Shown here piece after piece: positions 2,598-61,956 of a DNA stretch of 64,000 nt. Numbering within the stretch: the stretch's first letter is position 1; every line of letters starts with the position of its first letter. Origin of the DNA: Adineta ricciae. Taxonomy: Eukaryota; Rotifera; Eurotatoria; Adinetida; Adinetidae. The stretch is taken from positions 558,001-622,000 of the forward strand of contig CAJNOJ010000001.1 of NCBI GenBank assembly GCA_905250025.1, given 5' to 3'. Made by a program: the position numbers and the translations under genes. The notes beneath the pieces were generated by a model. That model saw only the letters and a program-made list of their open reading frames with translations. It had not been told where the DNA came from and did no database searches.

Positions 2598-3070
2598 TCT
2601 GCTCATCTCATCTTCAAGTCGTACGCATTGTTTCTCTTTATACTTCTCGAAATATTGGGCTTGGACATTCGCACACATGTATTTGTTTATTATTTCTCTT
2701 GTTTATTGTTCTCTATTTATATCTCTCTTCATGCGAATATTGCTGTGCACGCTTTTAAAATAAAAATAATAATAAAAATAAAGTTTAATTGCATAGATGA
2801 GCACGACACAGGCAAATGTACTTCTCTGTTATTGTCTGAGAACGTTTTCTTCACCAATGAAGATGTTCCGTTCTGTTTTCCCTTCTTTTCTCCGCCGTCA
2901 TTTCACGATTCGTCTTGTCAGTAGAATAATTATAGAGGGCTAAGCAAAGAAGAGCTGAATCATCGAATGTCTCCGTTTTCTCTTTTCTTGTTGATGGAAA
3001 ACGAGGAAAAACTCACAATATAAAACTCTAAGGAAAACAGCCAGTTGTCGACTTTTCTTTGAACCCGTAG
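2598..3070. other. Intergenic, tubby to PMP3-like gene
   Basis: AT-rich spacer with pyrimidine-rich tracts. The open frame in it has no recognisable protein content. Confidence 0.6.
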
Positions 3071-3074
3071 AACG

Positions 3075-3333
3075 ATGGGAGATTTCTGTGCCAAAATACT
3101 TTTATTAATTCTGAGCGTCTTTATTCCACCGGTAGCCGTATGGATTGCCCGGAATAAAGTCTGTAGCTGTACTGTGTCTGTCAATATTCTGTTGACATTG
3201 CTCGCTTGGGTACGTATCTTGTTTTTCTAAGAAAAAAAATACAAAATAAATCAACAACTCATTTCTTTTCAAGGTTCCCGGAGTGATTCATGCGTGGTGT
3301 GTTATATGTTGTTGTGATAATCTGGATGGTTAA
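3075..3333 (+). CDS. PMP3/UPF0057 small membrane proteolipid
   Basis: A 64-aa two-exon gene: 3075-3209 and 3274-3333, with a 64-nt intron. The peptide has the build of the PMP3 (UPF0057) family of plasma-membrane proteolipids: a first hydrophobic helix with the IPPVAVW core, then NILLTLLAWVPGVIHAWCVI forming the second helix, and a Cys-rich tail. In yeast and plants, relatives affect membrane potential and salt tolerance; that is family knowledge and not shown here. A TAG acceptor at 3068-3070 lies just 4 nt before the ATG, which fits a trans-spliced or very short leader. Confidence 0.9.
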
Positions 3334-3546
3334 TATTGAAGAGACGAAGTCAGCATTGCAACTTTGTGTTCATTTTTTTGCTTTTGTGCTCAGTAGATGT
3401 GTCTATGAAATAAAATCTCTTATTCTAATTGTGATTTGTCGACTAAAGGCATGACTGATGAGATTAATAGTTCCTTCGAAATTGATGAATATTGATTATT
3501 ATATTAAACTATCTGCACAAAGTACAAAACAAAAAAAAAAGAGTAT

Positions 3547-6653: not shown

Positions 6654-6666
6654 TTTTGTTTTCCTT

Positions 6667-9600
6667 CTAGAAGGACATGTGTTACATTTATATGGAATTG
6701 AAATAGAAGAAAACGAAAGAAACTTTGGATTATATTACGAACTAAAGAACGAAAAACAGTTTTTCTCTTTTTCTTTCGAATCAATTTAAACCTTTCGTCC
6801 TATCATTTTCTTCGTCTATTAGTATATAAAGTACTGGATGACAACATATGACTATTTGAAAGAAAAAAAAAAGATTAATATTTTTATCTCTTGTGTACTT
6901 TTTGATAAGAATTATCTTTTATACCGATGAGATTCTCAATTCTATCATTTAGAATTTTATTTGCTTTGTAAAGATGAAATCCTTAATCAATCTTTGAATC
7001 TACATGCCTGGCAAGCGTACAAAAAGTAATATCAGTGGAAGGAATTAGACTTGTCATGTCGTAACGCTCACGCTATTGTATTCTCTTTGAATAACAAATA
7101 TTAACATTAAGCAGGATATTGATGATAATGCGATTCTATGCGCGAAGAGTATATACACATCTATTAAAAGAATAGTAGATGGAAAACAACACGCGGCTTA
7201 TATTTCTGATGTTCGGTGCCATAACGTTAAGTTAATGAACTAAAATTTTCCATCGACTCGGCTCATTGGGTTTATTTCCTACTGACGATGTGTAGTGGCC
7301 CATTGATGTTAATATAACACATGAGAGTTCATATGTATCATGCCACGGAGTACAGAAGAAAACAGAGTAACGTTTATTTAGTATAATATATCAGCATATC
7401 AAGAAAATATGTCAAGTACGCATATACAAATGCACGGTAAAGTGTAGGGATATATTCATAAGAATAACAAGAAGAGAAAAAATAACATGAAATAAGTTCT
7501 TCAGACAGGAGTGGGGCAAAGCATTAGTCACAACTGCAGCTTTTGTAAGTATACTAGTGCATTAGAAATGACAAATTTATGTTTCTGAGCTTGGATAAGA
7601 CGACTTTTAGTCATGTATTCATGTTTTTTGGTAGGTCAAAACCCGAGACAAGCAGTTAGACAGGAACATCCGAAGGGTAGCATCAATTGAAGGTGTCTTT
7701 TCCACCCTCATACTAAGTACATAGATTCTTTTACAATGGAGTAAACTATTATTCACTATAATAATAGCAGAAAGTGTCTTCTTCAACTATCTTTTATGTT
7801 CTTTAAAATAGAGTTCAAATATTCATGAGCGCATATGATATGAAGAAGTATTCTTTTTTGTTGAAAACGAATTTTTTGCTAATCAAGTTCATCAGGTAAA
7901 AATAGTTCTACTTATCTATTCACCGAAAGAAGTTAAATCGAAATGCAACACGTTCATACTGACATTTTTTCATTAAAATCTGCGCACAAAAACGTGATAC
8001 ACTGTCACATGACAAATTCTTTTAAGCAATTATCGCATCAGGAAACGAGTATGGAAGGTATAAACCTTTTTTCAATGTTTTAATTTGACAGAAAGTCATA
8101 TTTCTCATTTGGAAAAGTATATTCAAGCACTTAAAATTTTCCCTCATTACAGCATTTCTCGGCAACAAGAATTGAGGTTTAAATTAATCTATTTACATGC
8201 CACAGCATAGGAAAACATAATTTAAGTAATTAGCTAAACTAAAAAATGAAACGACGTTACTTTTCTCTAAGCACATTGCTTATGAGCTTATCAGCCTGTT
8301 AAATAACCACAATACACAAGTAGAATGAATAGTTACCAACTGCAGAGGTTTTATTAACAGAGAACATGCTCACATGGTTTTCTTCTCTTATGTTGAAAGT
8401 ACCCGAAAAGCTTCTTTTTTTTAGAATATAAATATTTAGTGTTTTCACGAAATTCCACCGATACGTAGTTCCTTTTACTACAGTATATCAGTCTATGTAC
8501 GATATTGATACAATGGAAGTCCGAAATAACTATTATTATTCTGTAATTATTTATAAAAATAGACGAGCTAAAACACATTCTCGTTCGTCATCTTATTAGT
8601 GTTCAATAAATTTATATGTTGTGAAGACGTGCTTGCACACTTGCTGTTCAAAGATTATGAAAAATTGACGGAAAACTCATCAGTTTGTACACGTGTTGAT
8701 TTTGGTTAATCATTAAGTAATGGAGGCGGCCTTCACTTTCATTCTTTTGAGATCAAAGTTAGAAAAATGATTAATTCCCTGTCGCATAATCTGCGCTGTG
8801 TTAATATTGACTGAGCGCATTTATTGACATTTAAGCGTAGTAGATGAGAAACTCTGCTCGTCATCAATTAATAAATGAGAATCTATAGAGCAAACGCGTG
8901 GGCCTATCTACAACTTGTCGGAATTTAACCAATTATTGAGAACAAAATAGAGCACGTTGAATATTTTCTAAAGAAAGAAAACGTCGTTGGAAATAAGTGG
9001 TTCATTGTCAGGAATTTAACCTGCTCATCAGGTGTTTTTTATCAGGTATTTTGCAGTAACTATAAATTATTATTAAAAAATAATGATTCTTTGTTGAAAA
9101 CAGCACAGGATTCAAACGTGTTTTTTTTTCTTCTAATTTCCTATGCTGACATTCCGTAGATGACTATTGAAGCGAAAAGCTAATTAGTTGGTAGGTTAAC
9201 TTCTCTAAATTAGATATAAGAACGTTAATTTCTAATCCGAATTCAATGGTAAACATCCTGTTATTGTTGAAAGTTTGCAGCAAACAACTTTGTTTCAGAC
9301 ATTTTACTCGAATGGAAAGCGTAAGACTTTATCTAAGATCCCTTTCATTCACTAAACTTGAAATCAACCTCCTGGCAGTCTTCAGTAAAGAAATAATTGA
9401 CGCATATTTGTATTCGAACATGCTTCATTACATGGAATCAATAGAAATCTTTTCTGCAATGAAAATGTTCTGAACGAAACGTCTGCAAATGATGTGATTA
9501 ACATATTAGAAGACGTTGTTTATTTGACTGGGTATTTTTCATTTCCGTTCTAGTTTATCTCTATGCAAAGAACAGTAATCACCAACTGTCATCATTAGTC

Positions 9601-10449
9601 GTGTTTGTTTTTATTCATGATCATGTGAAACAGATTAATCATCTTAAATAGAAGAAAATAAGACTTCAGACCCAACGTCATACTTTACTGAATGAATCTA
9701 CTTTTGAATAGTTTTCTATTTATACGTGTACGACTGATGCTTATTTGAGACTAAATTCAATCAAGCGGATACCCTTAATTAGATTTCGGGGCGAATAATT
9801 GACCTAAACGTGATCTTTCGAGAATTAGGAAAACGAGATGTTCTATTTCTTTTATTCATCGATCTTATCAGAAATTCATAATTATCTTCGATGGCGTCAT
9901 ACGAGACGCAATATTTAATTCCTGCTTGCATCTGTTGCGACCATAAGTGCCGTCTGAAAAATGAAAACCTGTCGAGTTTTATTTTTATCTTATACGAACA
10001 AAAAAATCGGCTAATTTTCTACTTTTTGCCTAAGTTACTATACGATACGACGATGTTTTCGAAGTTTTATATTTAGAAACAAAAGATATTCGTGGATTAG
10101 TATTGATAATCAATGAAGACATGCACGCATATGTCAATAGGGTCTAGTAGTGCCGTCAGTTTCTTTGAAATTCTCAGGCGTGTATTAAAAATGCGGCTCA
10201 TTTCTTTGCGATTATCTTCAGTTAATTTCAGAAGCTGAAATCTTCTTCTTAAAGCACATGAAATCGCTCAAGACTCTTTCTTTCTTTCTTTCTCTCTCTC
10301 TCTCTCTTACAAAAGAATCATTGAAACCTAAATAGAATATTATCATTTCCTAAAGAAACGCAGAAAAGAACGCAATAAAAGACAAGAATTTCTTTTCTTT
10401 CTTTCTTTCTTTTTTTCATTATCATTTTATACTTCTCGTTAATATTCTT
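6667..10449. other. Gene desert
   Basis: About 3.8 kb of AT-rich DNA with stops in all frames. The few short open frames (8354-8578 minus, 9246-9473 plus, 9891-10076 plus) show no family motif and no supporting splice structure. I see no tRNA, transposon or tandem array, apart from the TTTC/TC microsatellites at its right end. Confidence 0.6.
10275..10308 (+). repeat. (TTTC)n/(TC)n microsatellite
   Basis: A pyrimidine tract that shifts from TTTC units into about eight TC units. A second TTTC run lies at about 10391-10415. Both are upstream of the GPCR at 10467 and together make a strand-asymmetric polypyrimidine region. Confidence 0.85.
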
Positions 10450-10466
10450 AGCACAAAGACTTCATC

Positions 10467-14607: not shown

Positions 14608-15976
14608 CTTACTACTAATCTAGAAAGAAAGAAGCACGTAGATACAGTTCTCTATTGTTTTGTTAGTTTTTCGTCTGATTTCAAGTTATTTTATGTGCTA
14701 AAGTTCTTATCTCTTGTTGTATGACCTTGGCGAACAGCTTCATCATGATGATAACAAACATTGTTATCATAAATGTTATACAAAGTTTTATCGTACATTT
14801 TCATTACATCGAAAACTTCTAGAATGTTAAATCATCGACACCTTGTATAAATGTATGCTTCGGTCGAGTAAAGTCAGCTGATAGGTAAATGCATACGTAG
14901 ATAAATGTGTCGAATGCTTTTGATTTTCATTCGCGAGTAACAAAACCAATCATCAAAAGAAAGAAAAATATGAGTAGATTTAATGTTAAATTCGAACTTC
15001 GACTAAATTGACAGTTGATTGTGCACTAAAACTTCTATGATCTACAACATGGATGACATTCAATTCTTTCTTCTAAAATGCTCTAATGAATAAGCACTTT
15101 TTCATTTCCTTCTTTCCATTACCAAAACAAGAAAGAATCTCGGTTACTACACAAGACCTCCATCCAATCTTGTATTGAGTCTAGTTGTTGTGTAACTCTC
15201 ACACTATCAGTTTGATAAGCACTGTCTGTAATTGTATACTTTTTGAAAATAGATATTCTTGTCATTATACATACTATTCATATCGCTTTTAGTTTCATGT
15301 TAAATTAATCTGTGTTTTTTTTAAATTCATACAAAAATATAACCTTTCAGGGTCATAGTATGTTATTTCAAGATTCAGTCGATCAAGCATGATATAATCC
15401 AAAAATAAACTTTCTCTAGCAAAAACTAATAAATACTTTATTCATAAATTTCACTTGATATTTCTTAATACCGAGAAGTCGAAACGAATTGTCAACGTGT
15501 TTACAACTCAAACGATATTTAAAAATTCAACGAGTACTTATACAAAAAGAATATGCATGTTTCTCAATAAGCTGAAATAATTGTTCCAACATTTAAACCC
15601 ACTAATTCATTGCTATTCACAAGTATCATCCGTACTTTACGCAACAGGATATGGATTTAATGAATAACTTACATAGATGATGTCGGATAGATGCGTGCTT
15701 ATTTGGATATTTACAAAAAGTTCATATGGGCTTCCAATAGGTAGACGCGTGTTCGACTGAATATGCCGGTCGGAATCAGACTGCATGAAGTATTAAAGTT
15801 TAAAAGTTATTCTTTCTCGTAGAGAAAAACAGCCCACCATCTAATCCTACGTATCGTCGTTCTTCTACTCGAATATACTATCTTTATCTTGTGTCTCATA
15901 TTCCGAAAACACTTTTTTCAGAATCAGTCATCATAATCATACTATACTTTTGAGTAGAAAGTAGTCCGAAGTCGTA
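14608..15976. other. Intergenic region
   Basis: AT-rich spacer between the divergent protease and GPCR genes. It probably holds both promoters. I see no coding content or structured RNA. Confidence 0.55.
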
Positions 15977-16012
15977 GTGCGGTGGTTTTACAAGAGAAAG
16001 AAAGCATTGACT

Positions 16013-16924: not shown

Positions 16925-17177
16925 GCATTTCATGTTGTTCTTCTTTTCAATAAATATCGTGTAAATTTGATCTTCTTTAATCTATATTTCGTACAATATA
17001 TGTAACGCACGACTCGTAATGAAATACGTGTCATCGTAATTCCTATTTTCTTTCCACTTAATTTCTACATCTCACGTAGTCACTAGCAAAAAGCTAACTT
17101 TAACATAAATCTATCCTCTAGAATCTCTTCAATGGCTCACTTTGTGTTATTATCTAAATTGGAATTGTTAAGGAAAC

Positions 17178-20931: not shown

Positions 20932-21299
20932 ATTTTACAATCTAAATATATGGAACAGATTAAGTCGAGAGAGACATTTCAAATGACTATTTCAACGTCT
21001 GCCTTTATACTCCAAAGTATCATTCGATCCTTGTTTATTAGTTTAATATTATTTTCCCTTAAAAATTGATTACAATTTCGATAATATACATGCATTTTTC
21101 TCCTCTGAAGTAGAACAAAGAATGACATATGCATACAACGTTTTTGTATTGGACGAACATGTGATAACCAATAGAAAGAAAGGTAAAGATAGAGGGATAA
21201 TCATACGATGAATGAAAAATGTGCAAAATCATAGAACGAGTTTGAAACTTCATTATTGCTGTGACTAGGTATACTCTCTATTTGGCGCTCAAACAACAG

Positions 21300-27368: not shown

Positions 27369-28344
27369 AACTGAACTTTATTTGTTTTTTTTTATTGACC
27401 CCGGTGTTCAAATATAAAAAAATATAATTATCTTCACACGATTTGTTTCCTGCTGAGAGCATTGCAAGATAAAAGACAAAAGATTAAATCATCTGATTGC
27501 TTTTCTCACACGGAGATTTCGTTTCCTTTTTTTGATGATTGTCTAGACATTATATTGATCATAAAAGAAATACCACCAACAGTGAAGTTCAAAGTAAAAA
27601 TGAATGTGATTGACAAATGTTAGAATATTCGAAATGTGAATGGTTTGCGTATTGGTTAAACACCTAGTTTGTTTTTTTAGGCGATTGTCGACACCTATTT
27701 TTTAGCAAATATTGAAGGTATTCTAATTGAGAGTTGAACTGTGAGTGATGTTCATTGAACTATAGATAATGAACAAAAATAGAAGTGCACTTGTGCGTCA
27801 CATGACGTCCGATAAGAAATTTGTTCACAACAGGTGATGTTCATTTCTAAATTGACTGGTTTGATCTTCGCGCAACTGTCATATGACTCTGATCTTTTGG
27901 TGCTTTCAAAAAATAAATAAACGAAAAATCTCTTCGAATATTAAAGAAATGAACCGAAAATTCTTGTCATGAAGTCAATTAGAGTGAACCTATTTGTTTG
28001 AAATTGTTTTGCTTTGCACACTATGATGAGCTAATGATGTTGACTGCTGCGTGAGCATCGTATACATATTGTGTAATTGATTCCAAACATTCATTTGCTT
28101 CTTTTTGATGGTCACGTCATTGTGAAGAATTGTTAGAAACAACCAAAAACAAAAGACGAACGCCCTTTTCTTATCGACTAGATTCATGCTTCATACAAAA
28201 GATAACAACAAGTATATTTTATGTCAGCCAAAGGCAGTACGACCGAACAATATCTGTATAAGTAGAACGAAAAGAAAAAAACACTGGCATACATTTTTAT
28301 AGATATGTCTTATCTCAACGAATGCGCACATTGTTGTGTTACAG
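27369..28344. other. Intergenic region
   Basis: AT-rich spacer upstream of the first monooxygenase. The 65-codon minus frame at 28187-27990 has no recognisable content. Confidence 0.55.
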
Positions 28345-28351
28345 TCCATAA

Positions 28352-32820: not shown

Positions 32821-33166
32821 TATCACCAATCTAGTTCTGATTAGTTTTTACGTAGTCGCTTCATATCCAATAGGTGTACTTCATCTGATTCTATATATGT
32901 GAATCATGAGAGAAAACTCAATGGCAGCTGACCTCACATTACTTGAATTCATCTGTGTCTAAAATGTAAGTCCTTCTTCTCAACGGTTCCTGATAGAATA
33001 TTTACAAAAAACTTCTTATCATTGTTCTAGTCTTGTTGAGATTAGAAGCAAATGCTCGACAAATAGGAGATAAAAGAACGACAGTTTGTTGGCGGTGGCA
33101 AACATTTAAATATCCTCTTCTTTTTTGTTTTCTCAGCATTTTATTTATAGGTACAGACTGTGCAAA

Positions 33167-35037: not shown

Positions 35038-35057
35038 CTGCTAATCAAACTCTATCT

Positions 35058-36451
35058 TTATTTCATAAACAAGAATGAAGTAAAAAAAAAGAAGAGATGG
35101 AAAGAAAAACATCTATTTTGTTTTCCTATATCAAAGGTTGTCGTTCGTGATGGGCGTTTGAGAAGACGTTTCCGAACGTTTTGTGTTCGTAGTGCACTCA
35201 TCATTGTTTCATTTTGATGATGAGCGGATTTGAGACGAGGCCAAGAAGCAACGCGCCGTGGCGGAACATCGATTATTTCCGTTAATGGAATCAAACTATC
35301 GTCTACTATGCTCGGTCGCATCTCGGCGATCAGCGAGGGCGAATAGCCAATTAGAAACGACGGTTGTTGATGAGATGGAACGAGAAATCGTCGAAAAAAG
35401 CGTTGCAACATACGGCGTCGTCGTCGATATGTTAATTGATTATTGGATTCAACTTGCTCACTTATTCGTGATTGAAGAAGACGATGTTGTTCTTGAAATT
35501 GAATAAGACGACGTTGCCGCCATGCATCCATAATCCATGCAGCAGTTGCCAATTCATTATCACGTGGTTTTTCCACAGGTAATTCGAGAAACGGTGAAAG
35601 AGCCTCACGATTTCGTTCGGCTTCTCTAGCTTCGAGTATATCGACTTGTTTCAACCAGTAATCTAGATCAAATTTTTTTGACGAAAGATGCGGATTGGCA
35701 ATATCAGATGATGATTCACGTAAACAACGACATAGACGAGAACGTGCTTTCCAGCATAAATAAACAACGACGAATAATAACATACCTATAATATCCAAAT
35801 ATTAATTATCGGAATGTCTGCCACGAGAAAATAATTTCTCGTACATCATCTTTAATTCTATCCAGATAATTTTCTTTCTACTGGAGAATCCGATCGGAAG
35901 TTTATTATCTACTGATTCCTATCATTTTCAAGTACATAGACTTCTTTTCTATTTCCATAGAATTCATTTCATTTTGCTGTTTTTCTCCAAACAATCTCAA
36001 TGATTATTGTCCTATTAGTTCTCAATCAACTCTTTCTCTGTCTGAAACGGCATAGTTTTGAGTTTTTCGATTATATTAAACGGAATATTTCCTTGTCAAT
36101 TAATGAACATTTCTGCTCGAATGAATTCATGAAAATCTTTTTTTAAGAAAATAAAAGATTTTCTTCTTGCATCTTTTATTTTATCAGAGACAACATACCG
36201 CCAAGAAGAGCTGCTGTCTTAATCCCTGTTTTCACGGAATAGGGTTCGTCAAATGAGATGTGTTGATATTCAGTAGTCGAAGCGGAAGTCGTATTTGAAG
36301 GCAGCGAAGTAATAGTAATAGAATTTGCTATATCTTGTCGTTTTTTTACTTGTTTACTACTGTTTAATAGACGATAGATAGAAGATGTTGAGATAATATT
36401 CAACGCGACGGGTGCTGCTAGTGATTTGTTGATACGATTGAATGGGAGCAT
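35058..36451 (-). CDS. Single-pass membrane protein of unknown function
   Basis: Two exons, 36451-36199 and 35785-35058, give 326 aa. The intron is 413 nt, unusually long for this window, and it splits the codon for a Gly within the single transmembrane helix (TAALLGG then MLLFVVVYLCWKARSRL). A Ser/Thr-rich N-terminus precedes the helix. After it comes a Cys/Arg patch (RSRLCRCL) and a long charged, Arg-rich cytoplasmic-type tail with a predicted coiled region (WRQRRLIQFQEQHRLLQSRI). I do not recognise a domain. The 3' end lies 20 bp from the stop of monooxygenase copy 2 on the other strand. Confidence 0.6.
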
Positions 36452-40251: not shown

Positions 40252-40266
40252 TTTCGAGTGAAGGTA

Positions 40267-41291
40267 CTGGAAAGAATAACAAATAAAACAAATTTTCCTT
40301 TCTGAAAGAAAAAACGACAAAGGAAAATGTTTTGTTTCTTACATTGAGTATAAAAGTTACTAAAATATACAAAGCAATCTGCCGAGTTTCAATGAACTAA
40401 TTATGATAAGCTTAAATTAGACGACATGCAATGAAAATGTTCCGGAAAAGATTAGAACATTTTCAACTGATTGAATTCTTTCTCGGGAATAAATCGCATT
40501 GTATTCAGATGTTTTGCACTTAACGAAAGTTCTTTTCTCAAAGGATCATTCAAATCGAACAAGCGTACACTAGTCTCAGAATTCAATTTCGTACTGTTCG
40601 AGACTTCTGTATGATTTTAATTGATCTGATTTCAAGTTTGCATTTGCACAAGCTTAAATAACAGTTAGATACACAGAAAGAACAACATGATTGGAATTCT
40701 ACTAAGCATTTCTGCAGCGATTTGTGTTAAATTCTATCGCAAAACGTAAATATTGATCTCAATTACACATTCATAACAAATCTTTCTTGATGTTTTCATC
40801 TGCCATGAATTGCTCTTTAGCTGGCATTCAACCAACGATCTTCTGTAATACAACTAAGTAGTAGAGTTCTGAATTTTGTAGTTGCACTTGTATGTTCTAA
40901 GTAGCTCAATCCAAAGATTAATGATAATCCATCTAAACAACAGAGGTCATGGCTCTAGTAATGTTTTTACATCAGGGATGACAATTAAAAGTCTTTCTTA
41001 CACATGTTTTATGCATATCTGCTGGTAGAGAGATACCAAATACAATATAATGATGCTATTATACTCTCTACTAAATGTATATGAAGAACTAAATCATATC
41101 AGCTGCTGTGTCAATGGTAAAAACGTGTTTTATGAATGAAAAAGGAGAAAAGCTTTTTGCGTCTTTACATTTTTGTTCCTTCTAATGTTAATTATCTTAT
41201 CTGAGTCAATGTCGTCCATAGGCAATCGACGAGCTTCCAAGTATATATATATATATTCTAACGATGATTTCTCGTGTTATCGACATAATAA
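40267..41291. other. Intergenic region
   Basis: Spacer between divergently oriented genes, with a TATATATATATA stretch at about 41243-41256 upstream of the hydrolase start that could be a TATA-like promoter element. No coding content. Confidence 0.5.
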
Positions 41292-42179: not shown

Positions 42180-42209
42180 GATGACGACACTACAACAAAT
42201 ATGTTTCTA

Positions 42210-43382: not shown

Positions 43383-43385
43383 TCT

Positions 43386-45600
43386 AGAAAGATATAAAGA
43401 TTAGTTTTCTCGGATTCCACAATATGTCAAACAGTACACCGTTAATGACATGCTACTATAAAAAGTAACACGTTCAAAGAATTTCTGCTAGGATGACAAG
43501 GACATTTATAATGATGTCTTTCAATTAAAACTGCATTTAGTAGGCCAAACTTTCCCACTAACATTTATATGTGATGTTTTTGCCTATTATGGCATACTAC
43601 TGAATGTTACGCACGAAAAAAAAAATAAGAAAACAAGAGCACTGGAACTTATTTCTCTGACTGTATTGAGAATGTGTCTGAAAATTTCTTGATTTTCTCC
43701 GTCAGTGAGCTCAAAAACAGTAATTCGGAAAATGTGGACCTCTTTTTTCTTTTAGCATAAAAGTAAAGACTTGTCACATCAGAAAGGAGTAAAGAATAGC
43801 AAATGTAATAAAGTGGAAAGTCTGACCTTTGCCTGGCGTTTCTCTCGACAGTCAAGTAAGAATGTATCTGACTTCTACTTCTCATTTCTCTCTCTCTCAT
43901 CTTGTACTATTATATTTTACCTCTATGACGATCACTCTTCTCATCATTTTGTTTTATAGTTTCGGCAACGTTCTAATCTCTACTTGAATGCCTAACTGTC
44001 TCCATAAGAGAAATCTTTATTTCTATGTCTGTGTAAATGCTAGAGTGAGAAGATGAAGTTTTTACGAGCGTCTTCAATGAAGGAGAAGAGAAGTTTGTAG
44101 ACTGTTTCAGGTAATTCCTGACAGGTGAACAATTATAGTGCAGAGAAAGAAACACAAAGCGATTATCTGTTATCACTTGTGATCTTTCAATTAAATATTT
44201 ACAAAATTGTTTCATTGATTCCTTTCTAAAAATAATTAGTTTTATCAATGTGCTGTTGCTCAAATCTACCTGGAGTACAAAGAGTAAAAACGTTCTCTCG
44301 CTTTCTCGATGTCATCGATGGTTCAACTAACTTACGTTTGAGACAGAGAAAAAAAAACAAGTAAATGATATATATTAGCAACGAAAGAATAGTCTTCAAT
44401 ACGTCTGTCACACTGAAGAACCTTTCCTTCCGACTAAAGAATAAACTGAAGTATCATCTTTTATGTAACATGAAAAATTTAGAATAGATTGATGCCTATT
44501 TTTTGATAGCATCTCAATATTTTACAAAGTAGAAAATAAAATAAATGTATTTCGAAGTAGCAACGCAGCTGATAGATGACATGGCAAGTCATGAACTCTA
44601 TGAGACTCTCGAAACAAACAGCTTTAGCAAGACTCTGATTAGAAAGATTACGGATGTTTATTTGTATACCTTGCATAATCTGTAGATTAATCTGATGACT
44701 TCTATTTTAGATACCGAATACGAGCTAGTCTATAAGAGATATTTATATCTGAATAAAAGAGAGATCAATTCTAATTAGATCGATGATGAAGTTTAAAAGT
44801 TCACCGAACGCATTTTCAGACAACCTTAGAACGTCTTGTGAGTTATGTAACCGACGTTTTATTTATTCTTATGAATGATAAGAAGCCAGAATGAACTGAA
44901 TCCGTATCGAGTTTATGCAGTAGAATTCTTCTATAACGGCTAGCAAATATAAATTGAGCTATCAGTCTTTGAGATTAGGAAGGATTATGTCTTTCAGCGA
45001 TTTATTATGCTTTATATAATGCTCTGACGCACGCACGGATTCAAGCAGTGCACGTTTCATCACAACTTTTTGTAGCTGTTCAAATAAATTCAATCACGAA
45101 CATTACAGTGAATGACATTGAAATGTTTTCATTGTCTTCATTACACTTTTACAATTCTTACATAACAAAATTGTTTTTCTAAAGGGCAAAAATGAACTTT
45201 ATTTAAGCCACTGATTGTCAGTGAAAGAATAATACCATAACTAATGAATAAAGTTTTACATATTAAATGAGCTACCATGATTTGACTCAATCTATCAAAA
45301 ATTTATCATATTGACTTCATGTCAGCCGACAAAACTGACTAAAGATCGAATCAACGATCAAATTGCATTAATAATATCATTCAATAGCTTAATTTTTAAT
45401 CAATTTTATGTTCATATTCAAACAGAAAAGTAGTTGCAAAGAAAGCAAAACTCTTATGTGTAAACATGACATTATTCTCGTTGTGTATTCAGCCTACCAA
45501 TCGTTGAATGTGATTTTTTTTTTCTTTCTTTCATTTTTGTTAACAATTAATATTTTCAGTAGAACAAATATTCTGCTGTTGCTCCATATATTTATTTTTG
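43386..45600. other. Intergenic region
   Basis: About 2.2 kb between divergent genes. Short frames (43900-43649, 44263-43973, 44411-44226 and 44676-44479, all minus) are low-complexity or have no family features. No RNA or mobile element is recognised. Confidence 0.55.
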
Positions 45601-46497: not shown

Positions 46498-46521
46498 AAA
46501 TTGTTGATTACTTAAACAAAA

Positions 46522-48401: not shown

Positions 48402-48405
48402 ATCT

Positions 48406-51262
48406 ATGAAAAGCAGAAGATGATATGATGATTACAATGAATTTGGCATGTTCTCGTAGGAATTGCAAGATGAAAATGACGACATGTTGAGCAATTTATC
48501 GATATTGGCTTCGACCAATTAACCCGTGAGAATTTGACGAAAGAGGGTGCTCAATGCCGGTCTCAGCTAGATGGAAGTTAACGCTACATACATATCATCT
48601 GATTTGAAATTCTGTTTACTTCAGCTTTACGTTAGGATACTATAACATCTAAACTATTGAATGCTTGTAAGTCTTTTTAATGACAGATTGAACATAAATC
48701 CTATAGACGCTGAAAAATTAATCTTACTAATAAGCATGATTTCAATTTTCTGTCATCTACGACTGAATTCTTCGGTATGAAGTAGGCTTGAAGCTTTTAA
48801 TCTGTATCCGTATTTACTGCTAATATTCGCATTACTGGATTTATGCTTTGTTTGCGTGATATTATGGCTGTATTCATTGTTGGAAAGTACTTAAACGAGC
48901 AATAATAGAAACATTTTGTCATCGTCATACAACAGGAACTGCTACTTCTACCATGTTTGTTCTCGAGTGCTGTAGATAAATTAGATTGAAGTAGAAAAAT
49001 CTATTTGTCATTAAACTAAAGATAGGTATAAAAGTAGATCGTATTTACGGCAGAGTAAAAGCAATTATTGAAGAAAATCAGGATTATATCCAACCAAGCA
49101 AATTCACCACCTACGCATTTGATTTGCACAGATTGTGGTGCATATATATACACGTTAATCTAGATCATAGGTAGATCGATATTTCATAGGCTATTTTGGA
49201 TCATCGTTGAATCACAATATCAAGTAATATGTGAGTATTCCCTATTATGTAACAAATTCACAGGATGCGCTTAGCATTGAGCGTATTCTGATGTTCGATA
49301 TTAAAACAAATGATCACGAACATACACTATTGTTAATGAACGTTTCTCATTCTCTAGTTAGTAATTGGTTAGTGAATGTTCTTTATTTCGATCCCGCAAA
49401 ACTTCGGTGATAATAACCCTTTTTTAAGAGTTAAAGATCCAACCTTTCTTCTTGAACTGTGATCTTTTTATGTTGTTTTTAGCTTTAACAAGATAATTAC
49501 ATCCTTTTGTTATCTATCTATCTATTGGAGTAGTTTATAGTGTCCTACATACTTCAGACAAGTTCTAATTATACGAGAATACACTGACATCAATTAGTCG
49601 AAATGAAATAGAAAATGTAGTGAGTTATTACGTACATAAATAAAACTCTGAAAGATCTGCAGATGAAATTAATCTTCATCCATTAAAAAAATTTTCAAAC
49701 AGGAAGTCATTTTTCTAGAAACATCATGTGAGATTTATTCACGCGTAAAAAACTTCGGAAAAAAGTTCATTGGAAATTATCGTTTCTATCAAATTCAATT
49801 TTCTCGGATTTTCCAATTAAGAATAAAATGGACGGGGGGGAGAATCAAGAAACAAGTGAACTAGAATAAACGTAAAAAAGAACTAGTCGAGCTGCCCTTT
49901 ACATAATACTTGCGCTACCTGAGGGTTTCTCGATACATCTGCCGCTACGATTAACAAGAGGCAATAGTATGACATTTTATTACACTTGACGCTGTTTTTG
50001 CTATGTTTCTCACGCGAGGTCTCAGGCGTATATATATAGCTTAATTTTCAATTTACTTAGCTTTTTGGGTTAACCCTGCGTTGTAAGTAACATTAGCGTT
50101 TCGCTCTTTTTGTTTTCAGCTTCAGTTATAGAACATTGACAACAAGTTAATGCCAAGACAACTGAGAGTTTTTTTTTCTAATCTCTTGATCATATGTCGT
50201 TTCGACTTACCCGCTTTCTAATCGAGGATCGCATTAAAAAATCAGGAAAATAACAATATTTGTCTAGGTAGATTTAAACGTATCAGAGTACGTGGAAGAA
50301 ACCGCTCATTTAAGAGTATATCGATTACAATCATTTGCCCGGATATAATTATACATGAACGAAGTCATGGTTTCAGCTTATCTATACTCCTTATTAAAGT
50401 GTATGAACATAACAATCAGGAGAAAATCATCTATGAAGAATGAGAATCTATGACTTTCACCGAATGTCACTCGATTCGACGACAGCATCAGGTCGATATT
50501 AAAGATTAGCATCTTTATTATGAGAAACTAATTACGCCCATAATGCAGAACGAGAAATATCGTAGTATGCACGTATAGACCAAGTGGATGCACTTATTTT
50601 TTTTTCATAGTTAAAAATATTACTACATCTATCAGTTAACACAGTATACAACACACCCACTGAAGAACAGGTGATTGTCATCGTGGAATAGTTTTTCTCA
50701 GTGAAACGAGACAAAGTTTTTTTAGGTAATATGGACTTGATTAGGTAACGCGTAAGCAATCGTTTGGATATGTACTTTGAGTGTTTTATGATTTATCAGC
50801 AGGAAATCCACCCCATTACATTAACAATTGTTCATGTTTTTCACCGTAGTCATTTCTCTTACACGTTACATAAAATTGGGTATGATACCTTGAAAACATG
50901 TGTGATAAAAGGTATATAACTAGGTTAGTTTTTCACAACTTAAATTCCCATTCTCTTCATAGTTAGTTATCACAAGAGGCACACCCTCAAGAAAATATGA
51001 TACTTTTTTCATGAGAATCTTGCTTTTTTGGAAGAATACATTGTTATTTTCATTCTTACCGCATGATGTAGGTGACTAGACGAGAAAATCCTGATATTTA
51101 AACTGTAACCGTCTATTTTCGACAGTAATATACGATATTCACTACGCGTCCTTCTTCCGCATAATAGAGTAATTAAAATGCTTCTACTATATATCAATTT
51201 GTATATTCCATTCTAACGTCTGTTACGCCAAAAGAAAATCAAATTCGACATCTATATTGTAG
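48406..51262. other. Gene desert
   Basis: About 2.9 kb of AT-rich sequence with dense stops on both strands. No open frame with protein character, tRNA-like boxes or repeats. Confidence 0.55.
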
Positions 51263-51276
51263 ATAGCTATACCATC

Positions 51277-51715: not shown

Positions 51716-54239
51716 TATGCTTATTTCTCTATTCAAAATGGCTAAACAGAGAAGACATTGAAGTACTAGTTGTCTGCAGATTCTGTTCATTTTTAATTCG
51801 ATTAAAAAAGGATTGAATTAAAGAAAAACTGGTTACTTCTGTATTTTCTCTGTAAAAGAGATTTTTCAGAAAAACATTGTGAATGTTTCGTATGTAGAGT
51901 TTACAGGTTAATTTTCATTAATAAAAAATTTTCCAGATGTGACGAAAATGTCAATTACTTCGCCATGTTTTTTACCACTCAACTAATATGTAACTAAAGA
52001 GAGTGTTGTTTATGAGCTTGTCTACTTGGTGATTGGTACGTGAAATCACAAAGTAGACAGTCGCTTGAATGTCTTCTACCTAGACGACGAGGTTGTGTAA
52101 ATTTTGGATAATTGCTGATAACTTTGAGAAAAATTTTTCTGCTCATAGTTAAATCTCGTTTGCCTTTTTTCTCTGATAAATAATTGATGTAATGAAGATC
52201 AATTGATTTTGATTAGAAAAGTTCTTTTTTTTTCACGTTTATCCTTGACACAAGCACAATCGTCACGCTAATGAGAATATTGGGCGGCGTCATTATTACC
52301 GCTTGGCATCTCCCTCGAGATATCGTCACAATGATTGTTTCTTTCCAACATTGAGCTTAACTCCAGCTGAACAATGAGAAACTTATGTAAAATTACATAC
52401 GCGGAACGCGACGAGTCTCCGGAGAAACAAACAATAATGAATGGACAAGCGAAAAGACAAAAAAAAACGAGAGAAACTCAAAGTATAACTATGTATGGAA
52501 GCAGTACTGACGAAACTAGATTACATCATCTTCAAGATCGATTGTACTTAAGAGATAGAGAAGAAAATTTGTATCGAACGACATTCTCTCGTATTTGCAC
52601 TTAGTTTTCTAATTGAAGAACATGTATAGTTGAGCAAAGTAGCAAGATTGACATGCATAACAACTGTTCGTTTCTTCTTTTTTTAATAACAACATCATCA
52701 ATGTACAATTAGAACATGTTCATCTATCATCATGACGAGAACAGCAGCAGTCATTCGCAGTCAGTTAGAATATAGACAACCGAGATCGATTCGGAATGAT
52801 ACATAAAGAACAAAAGGGAATCTTGATTGACTCAATTCATGATCAGAACAGAAATCATAATTGAATAGAAATCTGCCCGATTAATTGAACTTTCTCAACT
52901 GTGTCGCCCGATGGCAATGACAAGTAAGTAGACTAATCGGATTTTCATGTCTATTTCGGAGGAAAAAGGAGCGATCGACGGAAGTCGTTGATTTTTTTTC
53001 TCTTCTTCTCCTTTCTTGTTTTATTTGTCTCATGCTAAATTGATGATATCGACATTTGTTATTCTTTCTTGTCAGAACAATATAGTCATCGTGACTAAAC
53101 TTGTCAAGATACAATTACATTCTGTTTTGGTTATTTCATACATTCAATATATATATGTTTTCTTCGAGATAATCTTCTTGTCTTAAGTTGATAGGCGCGA
53201 TTGCATCATCGGCAATAACGATTGAAAACGTTGAGTATTGAATATCAATATTACAGTTGTTGGCTTTACTTGTATGAAGATATGTTCAGTTGAATCTCGT
53301 CTTGAGTTGAGAAAAAAAAACAGCAAAGTTTTCAGATAGTTTGATGAAAGTATACACGCGTTTAGACTCTTCTATATTCTTTGTTGATTCGATTAGTCTT
53401 CTCAATCCGAGCAACTATATGTGGACATACAAAAGTAGGTAAGAGTGTGAAAAAAGAATGTTTGCGACATCTTAAAGGCGAAATTTGTCATCGACACAGT
53501 CGTCGGGTAGGAAAGTATGTCATTCAGATGTAGATGAAAGAAAGACAAAGTTTCTAATTGAATCGTCTTCATCCTATCGTAGAGAATAGAATGTCTGCGT
53601 ATATATGCGAAGACGTTCATACTACACACCTTTTTATTTCTTTCTCATTCGTTCGATCAATATTATTCGAGATGAATAGGAAAGAAATGAGGTAGTCGCT
53701 TATTGATTGTCGCTCATTCGAGACGATGATTTCTAAATCCCTGAAGCAATAAGTATCATTCTATATTATAGATCAATTAATAATTATTTTCCTTCTTTCT
53801 TTCTTTCTTCACTTTAGACTATATTTATGTCTCCGTTTTTTCATTCTCGAGAAGAGATTAATCTGACTATGACAATAGTAAATAATTGTTGAGATAACTA
53901 CGTCGTTTTTAGAAAAGAAAAACGGAAGACATCATACGAGGACAAATCTAATGAAAGGCAAACATCATCGAATACTCTTGTCTTTGTTTGCTGTTTGATT
54001 GATCACATCCGTGCGACATACAATCGAACATCTGTCATNCTCTTCTCGAACTAATAATAATGTGTGTAACATGATCATCGATATGATAGACAAATACGAC
54101 TGTTTGACTATTTCCGGATAGACAGTCTAATTGTCAATCTCGTTTGAAATGATGAACTTGAGGTATTTTCTTTCTTCTCTTTTCTAGAATATTCAAATAA
54201 TGGTATGATTGTAGTTTGTTCGATTTCTCTCATCATGCC
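51716..54239. other. Intergenic region with an N at 54039
   Basis: About 2.5 kb with no convincing gene. The frames at 52374-52604 (+) and 53114-52881 (-) are biased in composition and unspliced. A TTTC microsatellite lies at about 53791-53809. A single N at 54039 marks another unresolved base or join. Confidence 0.55.
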
Positions 54240-57672: not shown

Positions 57673-58527
57673 TGTATTGATTTATGTAGAATACTTCCTT
57701 CATGAGTGTATTTTTTTAACTCAATTCTTTGACGAAATCAAATAAATTCACATCGAACGATTCATTTACGTTCACATGCCATTGTATCTTGTTATTTGTT
57801 CTCAAGTAACCCAAATACGCACTTTAATACATATATTTAACCAAATACGTCTTCGTGGAAATTACGCGCGAATAAGAATCGGTTTAGTATCATCAGTCAT
57901 GTCTATGCAGACAAATGCATTCTTTGTTATCAGTGATCAACAGCGTACGTTAAGCATTTGAATTATTAAGTTCGTTTATCAATTGTAACGTAATATCAGA
58001 CACGTGATATAAATGCGGATTATTTATTTTATTTCTTAAAACTGACGTCACGTATATGTGTATATAATATAATGGTGGAACTATTTCATTTGAGAAGTAC
58101 TAGACTAAAAATGAATGTTACCGCTGGGTACGTTTCGAATTTGATCCAATTTCATTGCGTGACCAGAGACAGATGTAATTTAAATACTTTTATACATTCT
58201 TTTGTGTTGATTTTTTGTAATTATTGTTTACATAAGTGTCTTCTTTCGTGCAGTCCGAAAATTCAGCGAACGGTAGATGTCAGGATAGCTCAATCACGTT
58301 ATATCACATAGATAAATATCCAATCATGTCATTAGAAAATGAAAGAAAATGTATCTCGATTCATCTTTCAATCATTCATCCATTTTCGTATTTCTATACA
58401 AGATCGTCGTCATTATGATTGTTTCGTCTCGTGATCAACGAAAACATGTATTGTTTTTATTTTAAGATAAAATGTGGTTTCTATGAAACATATTCTTTGG
58501 ATGTCTAATTTAAGAAGTACATCATAG
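57673..58527. other. Intergenic region
   Basis: Contains the protocadherin 3' flank, with AATAAA at 57742-57747 as a candidate polyadenylation signal, and the ARL5 upstream region. No coding content. Confidence 0.55.
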
Positions 58528-58536
58528 CTAAACACG

Positions 58537-59183
58537 ATGGGTTTCTTATTTTCAAAACTTTGGACATTATTCGGTAAGTGTAAAACGGACTCGATGAAGA
58601 CAAAACTAAACACATTCGTATGATGTAGGTGATGAAGAACATAAAATAATCATTGTTGGCCTAGATAATGCTGGTAAGAAGACAATGAAATAGAATCTTT
58701 TTATTCACTTTTTCGTATTGATATTCAGGTAAAACAACGATACTTTATCAATTTCTAATGAACGAGGTTGTGCACACGTCGCCAACAATTGGTTCGAATG
58801 TCGAAGAAGTTGTTTTCAAAAACATACGTTTTCTAATGATGGATATCGGTGGGCAAGAATCGTTACGTTCATCGTGGCAAACGTATTTCGCCCACACGGA
58901 ATATGTTATACTTGTTGTTGATAGTACCGATCGTGAACGTTTGTTAATAACTAAACAAGAACTATTTCGTATGCTTCAGAGTGAAGAACTACGTACAGCG
59001 TCTGTTTTGATCTTCGCCAATAAACAGGACATCAAAGACGCAATGACCTCAGCGGAAATTTCCAAACAACTATGCTTGACATCCATTAAAGATCAAGCCT
59101 GGCATATACAAGCTTGTTGCGCGTTGACAGGAGAAGGCTTATATCAAGGATTAGATTGGATTGCGTCGCGGGTTAAACGATGA
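58537..59183 (+). CDS. ARL5: ARL5-like small GTPase
   Basis: Three exons: 58537-58573, 58629-58673 and 58729-59183, giving 178 aa, about the family length. Gly2 (MGFLFSKLW) is available for N-myristoylation. G motifs: GLDNAGKT (split by intron 2), the switch I Thr in [20 protein letters not shown], and a CALTG at the G5 position. The PTIGSNVEE switch and [12 protein letters not shown] are characteristic of ARL5, which acts at the trans-Golgi to recruit the GARP tether. It leads a run of five co-oriented genes. A CATAG acceptor lies 9 nt before the ATG. Confidence 0.93.
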
Positions 59184-59398
59184 GATTATTTTCCTCTCTT
59201 TTCGTTCTTTTTCTATATAAATATACATATATATATACGTTTCTTTGTGAAGACAAACAAGTCTATAGGGGATTCCAGCTTTGTTGAAACGAATCGTTCT
59301 CTCTTTTTTTTGTATTCGTATCTTTAGGAGTGCACGCGAAATTGGCAAGAATGAAATAATGTTGCAAAACTTTCTATTTTTAGATATTCATTGTGAAA

Positions 59399-59743
59399 AT
59401 GCCATCTAAAATGGTTGTACGTGTGCGTGACGATCTGCACAGAAGAAATGCTGATGGTATTGAATATGATCTATGGCGTCGGGAGAACGATTCTACTCGT
59501 GTTAAAATCAAACACGATACGATAACAAATGAGCATCCTGAGGTAGTTCTACATGCAAACAATGAAGACGAACTTGGTAATTTTGAAATAGTTCTCTTCG
59601 TCAAAGATTATTTTGAACGTTTCGATGAAAATATCAACGTGCGAGATAGTCGATTTAACATCTCGTTTGGTATGAACGCAATCAATACGGAAGAACAACT
59701 GAGTATTTATATTAAACCCGACAGTTATACATGTACTCTTTAG
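59399..59743 (+). CDS. Small protein of unknown function
   Basis: A single-exon 114-aa frame lying 215 nt after the ARL5 stop and 157 nt before the ENT start. It reads as ordinary protein: MPSKMVVRVRDDLHRRNADG, EYDLWRRENDSTRVKIKHD, FEIVLFVKDYFERFDENINV, and it is rich in charged residues and beta-type stretches. I recognise no domain. A TTTTTAG acceptor at 59377-59383 precedes the ATG by 15 nt. Codon use resembles its neighbours, which supports it as a gene. It could instead be a non-coding leader region. Confidence 0.55.
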   Translation: MPSKMVVRVRDDLHRRNADGIEYDLWRRENDSTRVKIKHDTITNEHPEVVLHANNEDELGNFEIVLFVKDYFERFDENINVRDSRFNISFGMNAINTEEQLSIYIKPDSYTCTL

Positions 59744-59900
59744 GAATGAAGAGTATCAATGAAAAGAACACTCTTTGCATGCATCAAATTTCATTAAAGC
59801 TATTTTTTAATCTGAACATTCTATTAATCTCATAATTTATCTACATCTAATTTGTATACGTTAACCAAGTCACCGCTTTTGCTTCTATTTTCTAGATTAA

Positions 59901-61611
59901 ATGGATAGTTCATTGCATTCGCCGAGAGAACCGAGTACATCGGTACCAACGGTTGTCACAATTGATGGACACAGTTGGGCTTATTGGGCGTTCGTTTGGC
60001 TAGGCCTTGGATCTTTATTACCAATCAATTTTTTCATCACAGCTGATCAATATTTTCGTTATAAACTACACGATCCAAGTATGCCGAACTCAACTGCATC
60101 GCGTTTGGAATTAGCATATGAGAATGCGGTAACTCTCTCAACATCATTACCAAATTTAGTTACTACAATGTTAGTAACATTCGTTTGTGTACCATTCATT
60201 CACAAATATCGTATCTATACGTCATTAAGCGGTATAACCATTTGTTTATTGATATGTTTTTCGTTGATTTTCGTTGATGTTCATCAATGGCGTGAAATCT
60301 TCTTCATGATTACAATGATACTGGTGATGTTTCAAGGTGTGCTGTCTGCTATTCTTCTCAATTGTTTCTTTTCTCTAACATCAACATTGCCAAGTCAATA
60401 CATTCAAGGTGAGTTGAAAATCTCGATTGATTCTCATTTGAAATGTATTTTTAATGGCAGCGTCGTGTAATAAATTTATCTGTAAGTATCGAGCTGTGCT
60501 AGCTATATGTTGAACATAAGATAAGTTGATACTTTGTATTTCTGTCGAAGAGAACAGAGGAGTATTATCATATGCTGAATGATAAAGAATTACAAACTGA
60601 ATTATTAATAAATACTGCGTTGTTTAGGATTTGTTGCTGGTCAAGCACTCGGTGGTGTCTTTGTAGTAATATGTTCCATAGCATCAATCTTATTTTCAAG
60701 CGATATTTCAACATCCGCAGCAATTTATTTTCTACTTGCTATATTCGTCTTTCTTTCGAATATAGTCACATATTTCTATCTGGAAAGATCTCATTTACTA
60801 CAAGTTTATTCGTCATCAGTTCAACAGATCAATAATGAAAACGAACCATTACTTCGTTCAACATCTATCGACGATCCTACTGATACAATCGATATGACAA
60901 CATTAGCATTGCGTCAACGTTTACTAGTTGCTTATAAATATACCAAATGGAACTTTTTCGGTGTTCTCTTAACATTCATTTGTACATTATCACTTTTTCC
61001 AGCATATATGTCGAAAATTCAACCGGCTCATCCGACTACAGATTATCCAAATACAATTTGGAGCGAGCGTTTGTATGCTCAAGTAATGACATTCTTGCTC
61101 TTCAACGTTGGTGATACACTTGGTCGTATGATATCATCCAAAGTTCATGTTCCATCGTTATTACATCCTCGCCTTCTGTTCTGTTTATCTGCTTTACGAT
61201 TTGTATTTATTCCACTATTCGGCTTCTGTCATTTTCCAAACACAAATGGATATCCATACATATTTAAGAATGACTTTATTTATGGTTTCATTGTTCTGTC
61301 TTTTGCCACATCACATGGCTACTGCAATTCTCTTAATATGATGTTCGCACCGAAACGTGTTCATGCTCAATTGAGTAGCACAGTTGGAGCATTAATGCTG
61401 ATGGTAAGTTGTAAGATGAGCTCATTTTCATTTCGCATACACAGAGGATTTTTCTTTCACGATTATTTCTATTTTGATAATTGTTGACTAAAACAAATGT
61501 TTTTTGATTTAGGCACTTACTCTTGGCATTTTTCTCGGTTCTGTGTTGTCGTATGGTGTAGTAGCTATGTACGGTGATGCAAAAGCACCTGACAATGAAT
61601 ATTTTCAATAG
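59901..61611 (+). CDS. Equilibrative nucleoside transporter (SLC29-like)
   Basis: Three exons, 59901-60408, 60628-61403 and 61513-61611, give 460 aa. About eleven TM helices are readable. Family signatures: FVWLGLGSLLPINFFITADQ YF in TM1, the FMITMILVMFQGVLSAILLN region, GFVAGQALGGVF, then, after a long cytoplasmic loop, LSLFPAYM, FLLFNVGDTLGR, RFVFIPLF and GYCNSLNMMFAPK. ENT proteins move nucleosides across the plasma membrane by facilitated diffusion. The first intron (219 nt) is long for this window. A TTCTAG acceptor at 59890-59895 leaves only 5 nt before the ATG. Confidence 0.92.
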
Positions 61612-61956
61612 TTTATTTGATTATTCCTTCAAGGAGCAATAAATTATTCTTGCACATATTTCGTTTTTCTCTTCTTGACTTACTTTGTACTATGTATGTT
61701 AATAAAGCATGCTTTAGAACTAAAATGAGATATTTTTATCAGAGAAATACATTGATATTGACGCAAGTTTGTCATTGGTTGAATTATATGCTGTTACTCC
61801 ATCTTCGAACGAAGCCTCCGATGTCGTAAAAGAGAAATGACTCACATTTTTTTAAAAAGTGGTAAATACTTGCAAGGGCACGTTCTGTTTCGCATCCACT
61901 CAAAAATCTTATAGATAATATACATTTTGTCGTTGTCGAAATACCGACTGCAGACA

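Follow-up and report, generated by a model that had tools for sequence, protein, structure and literature searches.

The window (the whole 64,000-nt stretch of DNA analysed here, probably from a bdelloid rotifer) holds a series of genes with a putative splice acceptor shortly before the start codon. These sites are given below, with the percentile of each acceptor, that is, its rank among the acceptors of 136 introns predicted in the same DNA.

3054..3074, plus strand: PMP3-like gene, ATG 3075 separated from the acceptor by a 4-nt leader (percentile 0.18)
6654..6683, minus strand: UGT gene (Glyco_transf_28, Pfam), ATG 6653 separated from the acceptor by a 13-nt leader (0.18)
10435..10466, plus strand: GPCR-like gene, ATG 10467 separated from the acceptor by a 15-nt leader (0.26)
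14608..14636, minus strand: papain-family protease (Pfam Peptidase_C1), ATG 14607 separated from the acceptor by a 12-nt leader (0.93)
20932..20958, minus strand: HP1-like gene (chromo and chromo shadow, Pfam), ATG 20931 separated from the acceptor by a 10-nt leader (0.44)
28328..28351, plus strand: FMO/BVMO-like gene 1, ATG 28352 separated from the acceptor by a 7-nt leader (0.25)
33134..33166, plus strand: FMO/BVMO-like gene 2, ATG 33167 separated from the acceptor by a 16-nt leader (0.60)
35784..35802, minus strand: 35783 gene, acceptor 2 nt before ATG (0.37)
40252..40283, minus strand: 40251 gene, acceptor and 15-nt leader (0.57)
43383..43400, minus strand: 43382 gene, acceptor and 1-nt leader (0.60)
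48402..48420, minus strand: DUS2-like gene (Pfam Dus), ATG 48401 separated from the acceptor by a 2-nt leader (0.53)
51246..51276, plus strand: small EF-hand gene, ATG 51277 separated from the acceptor by a 14-nt leader (0.21)
54171..54239, plus strand: protocadherin-like gene, strong acceptor separated from ATG 54240 by 52 nt (1.00)
58511..58536, plus strand: ARL5-like gene, claimed 9-nt leader between acceptor and ATG 58537 (0.00)
59367..59398, plus strand: 59399 ORF, acceptor and 15-nt leader, no good donor (0.62)
59879..59900, plus strand: ENT-like gene, ATG 59901 separated from the acceptor by a 5-nt leader (0.86)
61862..61956, plus strand: IBR-like gene, GT at 61862, AG at 61913-61914, 42-nt leader, ATG 61957

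The names GPCR-like, small EF-hand and ENT-like are those of a preliminary description, which did not list the 35783 gene and missed the protocadherin-like gene; the first exon of the GPCR-like gene has no Pfam match. Starts used in the counts below are predictions of our own gene finder, which chose the next in-frame ATG (14592) for the protease and in-frame ATGs at 33230 and 54285 for FMO/BVMO-like gene 2 and the protocadherin-like gene. Absent from its calls are the small EF-hand gene and the 59399 ORF, the latter an orphan with no other match in the genome. FMO/BVMO-like gene 2 has a second AG at -30 (percentile 0.89).

The leader lengths in the preliminary description are accurate, with AG and ATG at exactly the spacing given in all 14 sites for which a length was stated, and 13 of these 14 acceptors rank at percentile 0.18 or above. 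Proximity of an AG is by itself at chance level, and we rejected it as evidence: some AG lies within 16 nt of 34 of the 53 predicted starts, against 1756 (61%) of the 2877 intergenic ATGs (p=0.38), and with TAG or CAG the figures are 24 of 53 against 34% (p=0.058). One explanation of the sites, that they are chance AGs or internal coding exons taken for starts, draws on this high background, on the low acceptor scores of the ARL5, PMP3, UGT and EF-hand genes, and on the 35783 gene, whose start may be an internal exon: the acceptor lies at -2 in both homeologous copies (percentile 0.31 in the other copy) and a donor of percentile 0.24 lies 59 nt upstream. We nevertheless consider this explanation very improbable, as acceptors of good quality are in excess before starts. 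Those scored at 0.59 or above and within 16 nt precede 16 of 53 starts against 7.9% of intergenic ATGs (p=2e-6).

With a scored acceptor defined as one of at least the 10th percentile located 0-19 nt before the ATG, the intergenic baseline is 385 of 2877 ATGs (13.4%), and the window has such acceptors at 11 of its 22 predicted starts (p=4e-5). The homeologous region gives a weaker excess (9/31, p=0.017), and at other loci the difference is not significant (3/7, p=0.055); this third set left out starts lying no more than 120 nt from the end of a locus, as well as those already counted in the window or homeolog, so that 7 remained. Pooled, the three sets have scored acceptors at 23 of 60 starts (p=1e-6). 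The homeolog is a weak replicate: at a 25th-percentile threshold it has 4 of 31 starts against 6.0% (8 of 22 in the window), and its excess has no peak at the start (consecutive 20-nt bins hold acceptors for 9, 8, 6 and 5 of the 31 starts).

Gene by gene, each of the two homeologs (proteins about 60-76% identical) has a clear acceptor in the case of the protease (homeolog acceptor at -9, percentile 0.68), FMO/BVMO-like gene 1 (AG abutting the ATG, 0.61), the ENT-like gene (-27, 0.88) and the protocadherin-like gene (-44, 0.75). Some homeologs thus keep strong acceptors despite a different leader length, which argues against chance AGs. In-frame stops lie between AG and ATG in the HP1-like, FMO/BVMO-like 1, ENT-like (also in its homeolog) and protocadherin-like genes, and therefore an upstream coding exon is ruled out for these four. 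The homeologous starts of the PMP3, 40251, ARL5 and IBR-like genes have no good acceptor; nor does one of the two UGT copies, whereas in the second copy an AG of percentile 0.74 lies at -12. The homeolog acceptor is weak for the GPCR-like gene and for the 43382 gene, where it is also at -1 (percentile 0.06).

Predicted introns in this DNA are short (median 57 nt, 136 introns), and in 0.85 of them the acceptor is preceded, at a distance of 38-80 nt, by a donor of the 10th percentile or better. We applied this donor test to 23 sites (the 14 of the preliminary description, 61914, and 8 added for having acceptors), with the 14 also counted separately. Only 1 of the 14, the 40251 gene, has such a donor, below the background of 0.26 among 416 strong intergenic AGs, in agreement with the earlier observation that no matching donor is evident. 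No GT at all is found 38-80 nt upstream in the PMP3-like, GPCR-like and protease genes, and no good donor at that distance in the protocadherin-like gene. These results bear on the alternative raised in the preliminary description, namely short cis-spliced introns in the 5' UTR, in which a non-coding first exon upstream is spliced to the AG. Such introns predict a donor that the other listed sites do not have, and we consider them an unlikely general explanation, although they fit 61914, where a donor of percentile 0.67 lies 53 nt away, a distance typical of introns in this DNA, and possibly 40251 (donor percentile 0.53 at 76 nt). Longer cis introns are possible, because donors are present 80-400 nt upstream of many sites.

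The earlier claim of acceptors just before the ATG in about fifteen genes is thus borne out by the excess of scored acceptors, but not for every gene. We reject ARL5 as a spliced-leader (SL) site on its acceptor percentile of 0.00, and likewise 61914, where an acceptor of percentile 0.01 is combined with a good donor and the sequence from 61862 to 61914 better resembles a short cis-spliced intron of the 5' UTR. The PMP3, UGT and small EF-hand sites are weak candidates for SL acceptors.

Searches of the genome for nucleotides 2-23 of the published 23-nt bdelloid SL exon (PMC3795323, Table 1) found 41 exact places and 3 with one change, with GT directly after the exon in 44/44 (0 in a reversed control). 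Including a two-change copy at C6:248897, the sole exception, GT follows 44 of 45 exon matches; none of the 45 is an SL-bearing retrocopy, a class of sequence that we had considered as genomic proof of trans-splicing and set aside. The window has no exact match to the exon, and the genome searches gave no place on contig C1.

Structure and promoter were studied in 30 of the 44 canonical places (loci L009-L038). These copies align to about position 109 with covarying hairpins, as would fit a predicted small structured RNA of about 100 nt. Alignment A1 has 25 cells with changes on both sides of a pair against a shuffled mean of 7.3 (reached by 0/500 shuffles); 28/500 shuffles had at least as many pairs with both-sided changes, and 420/500 at least as many pair types. 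Alignment A3, which combines 6 canonical genes with 11 of 15 variant genes (leaving out L048 (+), L055, L058 and L062), gives 10 pairs and 34 cells against shuffled values of 5.4 and 11.9 (0/500). Within the RNA, UUACC of the exon can also base-pair with GGUAA at the donor.

Upstream, 28 of the 30 SL genes carry a GTGTRRRGAC-like element at -46 to -48, a pattern drawn up after viewing the sequences. The same element lies at -48 in both U2 genes that adjoin SL genes (Rfam finds U2 in 2 of 8 sources searched and nothing in the window), while the entire window, read on both strands, contains it a single time. It is a candidate snRNA-type promoter element common to SL genes and U2. The rotifer Sm motif AAYUYUGA, as published (PMC2606063), is present in 15 of the 30 genes. 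A canonical AU4-6G Sm site is absent from positions 24-112 in 28/28 distinct copies, and AT3-6G starting at positions 24-105 occurs in 0/28.

In light of these genes, what might join the acceptors of the window? Outron 3' splice sites used in SL trans-splicing are, we believe, very likely the best account of most of the listed sites, which fit it because dozens of gene copies for a small RNA able to supply the leader are present in this genome. The primary transcript would begin upstream of the AG and lose its 5' part, the outron. A separate SL RNA, about 105 nt long, would provide the donor (AAGAG|GT) that the spliceosome links to the AG. This RNA would be made by dozens of genes of snRNA type, which are spread over several contigs and often arranged in head-to-head pairs. 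The mRNA would then begin with a common leader of 22-23 nt (GCTTATTACAACTTACCAAGAG) followed by 1-16 nt of the gene's own sequence. The SL signature proposed in the preliminary description accordingly gains from a genome that encodes the published bdelloid SL in SL-RNA-like genes and from window acceptors without donors at intron distance; that the SL is joined at these particular AGs we infer. The reading is supported for most, but not all, of the listed sites, with ARL5 and 61914 unsupported and 40251 having a possible cis donor. If it is true, gene prediction in this genome should anticipate start codons that closely follow an acceptor without an upstream exon, and the listed sites are direct predictions for RNA-seq.

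SL trans-splicing in bdelloid rotifers was reportedly described by Pouchkina-Stantcheva and Tunnacliffe in 2005. Nematode SL1/SL2 trans-splicing has outron acceptors before the ATG, as proposed for this stretch, and the nematode SL exon can pair with its own donor, parallel to the pairing predicted here; no operon-specific SL is evident in the present data. Ciona has one dominant SL, as here, and a non-canonical Sm motif, as may be the case here; the many head-to-head SL gene pairs are unlike Ciona. Its motif is given as AGCUUUGG (PMC2606063), and its exon in Table 1 of PMC3795323 is unrelated to ours. According to the same source, C. elegans SL RNAs have the AU4-6G Sm site, in contrast to the copies here (PMC3795323). 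Bdelloid trans-splicing itself is already known (PMC1925144), and the SL as published (PMC1925144; PMC3795323) has the same exon from nucleotide 2 on, the same donor GT and, by alignment, an RNA of about 100 nt, and is expected on many genes, as here. The base before GCTTATT is T in 44/44 places, whereas the published exon has G; possibly that first G was copied from the cap. Further differences from the published bdelloid SL are that AAYUYUGA is found in only half of the genes examined here, and that 15 further genes have exon variants.

The ARL5-ENT-IBR cluster is a candidate place for a rotifer operon. The 59399 ORF ends 156 nt before the ENT-like ATG, and ARL5 and ENT are 288 nt apart in the homeolog. 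The operon reading is a lead only, because convergent neighbours in this DNA also sit as close as 4-30 nt. Rotifer operons are unreported according to one paper (PMC7986045); a 2025 paper counts rotifers with the lineages in which both trans-splicing and operonic transcription occur (PMC12460157).

The 15 SL-RNA-like genes with altered exons lie beyond the canonical set; their variant exons are on C94, C99, C16, C64, C112, C8 and C43. They come from a core-pattern search that gave 64 places, of which those outside the studied canonical genes were taken as 16 stretches, leaving out single matches (C2:1187935, C4, C69 and C83) and canonical-like places on C76, C79, C99 (23-26 kb) and C146. We tentatively raise a diversified bdelloid SL family, in which the altered-exon genes might make minor leaders and the SL RNP might be independent of the AAYUYUGA motif. 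The SL gene inventory makes it testable whether bdelloids have more than one leader, and what replaces the canonical Sm site. Most of the examined SL genes without AAYUYUGA keep the surrounding hairpin, and the variant exons include a duplicated head-to-head pair on C94, a pair on C16, and four C99 genes with a 25-nt exon.

Here, we propose that the AG acceptors lying just before start codons, which the preliminary description had read as the signature of spliced-leader (SL) trans-splicing, are supported by sequence as predicted SL acceptors at roughly twelve of the 14 junctions with a stated leader length, although at differing strength. The strongest predicted SL sites are those of the protease, ENT, 59399 ORF, BVMO2, 43382, DUS2 and HP1-like genes. 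The mechanism is already known in bdelloids: one report describes a 23-nt SL, from RNAs of ~100 nt, on over 50% of transcripts in two species, with no SL found in Brachionus (PMC1925144).

The genome comprises 130.5 Mb in 1033 contigs, and its spliced leader points to a bdelloid; the window corresponds to C1:558001-622000 and has a GC content of 33.5-38.6% (4-kb steps). A colinear homeologous region lies on another contig (C13, ~361000-446000), with matches spanning window positions 3123 to 62930. A simple gene finder trained on both regions, in which acceptors before the start were not scored, gave 22 genes in the window, 31 in the homeologous region, and 136 introns (median 57 nt) with donors near AG/GTAAGT and T-rich acceptors mostly ending in TAG or CAG. 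PMP3-like, EF-hand and the 59399 ORF are not among its 22 window genes, and its ATGs for the protease, BVMO2 and protocadherin-like genes are in frame but later than those analysed here. Among ten proteins scanned, Pfam agrees with the names UGT, protease, HP1-like and DUS2, places BVMO1 as FMO-like and ARL5 in the Arf family, and has no match for the GPCR first exon, the 59399 ORF or the ENT first exon; the last gene, IBR-like, matched two IBR models just under the curated cut-offs. The BVMO2 model (33230-35037) contains the segment VAVVGTGASAIQVVPEVQKMGVKQLLVFQRTPPWI twice, across its first intron, perhaps a local duplication or an assembly error.

An AG and an ATG at the described spacing are present at all 14 junctions. 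This alone is no evidence, since intergenic ATGs have an AG within 16 nt as often (1756 of 2877) as predicted starts (34 of 53; p=0.38). Scored acceptors, defined as reaching at least the 10th percentile of the matrix scores in predicted introns and lying 0-19 nt before the ATG, precede 11 of 22 starts in the window, 9 of 31 in the homeologous region and 3 of 7 at other loci, as opposed to 13.4% of intergenic ATGs; at the stricter 25th percentile the values are 8/22 (window), 4/31 (homeologous region) and 6.0% (background). In the window the count drops to 4/22 in the following 20 nt. The homeologous counts fall slowly over successive 20-nt bins (9, 8, 6, 5, 2), and the excess there is thus spread over ~60 nt. 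Overlooked upstream coding exons could mimic such a signal, but not at HP1-like, BVMO1, ENT and protocadherin-like, because in-frame stops lie between AG and ATG (in the homeologous region, at ENT and protocadherin-like).

Comparison of homeologous starts (window/homeolog, nt from AG to ATG) identified a clear acceptor in both copies of protease (-12/-9), BVMO1 (-7/0), ENT (-5/-27), protocadherin-like (-52/-44) and the 35783 gene (-2/-2). For UGT (-13/-12) it is found in one of two homeologous copies, and for 43382 (-1/-1) and GPCR the homeologous acceptor is weak. The homeologous starts of PMP3-like, 40251, ARL5 and IBR-like show no clear acceptor, and HP1-like, DUS2, EF-hand, BVMO2 and the 59399 ORF, having no separate homeologous start, fall outside the comparison.

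Could these acceptors instead belong to cis-spliced 5'-UTR introns? Introns are short in both regions, and a cis intron should therefore have a donor within ~80 nt. Within that distance, 85% of the 136 predicted introns and 26% of 416 strong intergenic AGs have a donor that reaches at least the 10th percentile. As the preliminary description held, matching donors are generally not evident: only one of the 14 sites (40251) has an adequate donor within ~80 nt. Across all 23 examined sites there are four, which differs from predicted introns (p=7e-9) and not from background (p=0.73). One of the four, 61914, also has a poor acceptor and fits a cis intron better. Longer cis introns might still lie upstream of the listed acceptors.

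The rotifer SL exon is published as GGCTTATTACAACTTACCAAGAG (PMC3795323, Table 1). A genome search with this exon and the donor GT returned 44 places, GT following every one, and the reversed exon, as control, returned 0. The published exon starts with G, whereas all 44 genomic places have T. Allowing up to 2 changes gives 45 matches to the 22-nt exon, 41 of them exact. In fourteen head-to-head pairs the match starts are separated by 152-155 bp (~130 bp between exon 5' ends), and in three further pairs by 372 or 468 bp.

Thirty copies, no two identical across promoter and RNA together, are alignable to ~position 109 with an invariant exon. Exon UUACC is able to pair with GGUAA at the donor, and the exon word ACUUACC resembles the U1 snRNA 5' end. 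Hairpins 29-34/39-44 and 71-81/86-96 carry both-sided changes, and a 5-pair helix (1-5/99-103) and a rival helix (52-56/101-105) fit equally well. RNAalifold, on the same alignment, predicted the rival helix and the 71-96 hairpin and omitted 29-44, which was not formed in the fold of one C43 copy either; single folds of four copies gave z-scores of -1.95 to -5.12.

The rotifer Sm motif is given as AAYUYUGA (PMC2606063). In 15 of 30 SL genes it occupies positions 34-41, covering the loop and 3' arm of hairpin 29-44. It is missing from the other 15; by our reading, 12 of them retain this hairpin with different bases, unlike the three C43 copies. AT3-6G does not start anywhere between 24 and 105 in any of 28 copies, and no T run there exceeds 2; ATTTG occurs at 106 in one copy. 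Either AAYUYUGA is not the Sm site, or the RNAs of half the genes would be unable to bind Sm that way; an Sm site is said always to be present, in exon or intron (PMC3795323).

In 28 of 30 copies a GTGTRRRGAC-like element is located at -46 to -48; the pattern, drawn up after inspecting the sequences, has a single occurrence when both strands of the 64-kb window are counted. Two U2 snRNA genes (L022:884-1079 on C8 and L034:890-1085 on C43), each with its closest SL gene ~190 bp away, have the same kind of element at -48, which would mark the SL genes as snRNA-class genes. In one SL gene on C6 (L018, minus strand, index 520), by eye, a degenerate U2-like stretch and an N directly upstream replace the usual promoter element.

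A variant search with the intron part and GTTGCRATGACGAAA found further places, and sixteen stretches were then examined. Fifteen candidate SL-RNA-like genes (in stretches L048-L055, L058, L059 and L062) have other exons followed by GT, with the 3' hairpin and upstream element kept, as judged by eye.

Candidate SL-RNA-like genes with variant exons, by contig
C99: four genes, exon with two extra bases
C8: one gene, exon with one base missing
C112: two genes, variant exon
C43: one gene, variant exon
C64: one gene, variant exon
C94: four genes, variant exon
C16: two genes, variant exon

Three of the sixteen stretches hold truncated copies, and L063 is apparently unrelated. For C16 and C94 the 3' end of the exon was chosen by us, and their upstream elements have diverged further. 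On C94 the genes are arranged as two head-to-head pairs with 90% similarity across 413 bases, and one C94 exon occurs genome-wide, with up to 3 changes allowed, in just these two copies. In an alignment of 6 canonical and 11 variant introns (rows L048 and L009 appear misaligned in the first hairpin), 10 pairs changed on both sides, with 34 covariation cells vs 11.9 when shuffled (0/500 shuffles); pair types were matched by 40/500 shuffles. Two results count against function: seven variants folded more weakly, with z-scores from -1.40 to -2.70, and the exon-donor stem did not form in folds of the C94 exons. No title among the literature matches listed concerns SL variants in bdelloids.

ARL5, the 59399 ORF, ENT and the IBR-like gene lie in tandem on the plus strand (58537-62964), with stop-to-ATG distances of 215, 156 and 345 nt, and represent a candidate SL-resolved cluster. 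According to PMC7986045, operons are unreported in rotifers. The 59399-59743 ORF (114 aa) has a good acceptor and no second match anywhere in the genome. The homeolog retains the ARL5-ENT-IBR order, with spacings of 288 and 357 nt. Both regions together contain 12 divergent neighbour pairs, each at least 625 nt apart.
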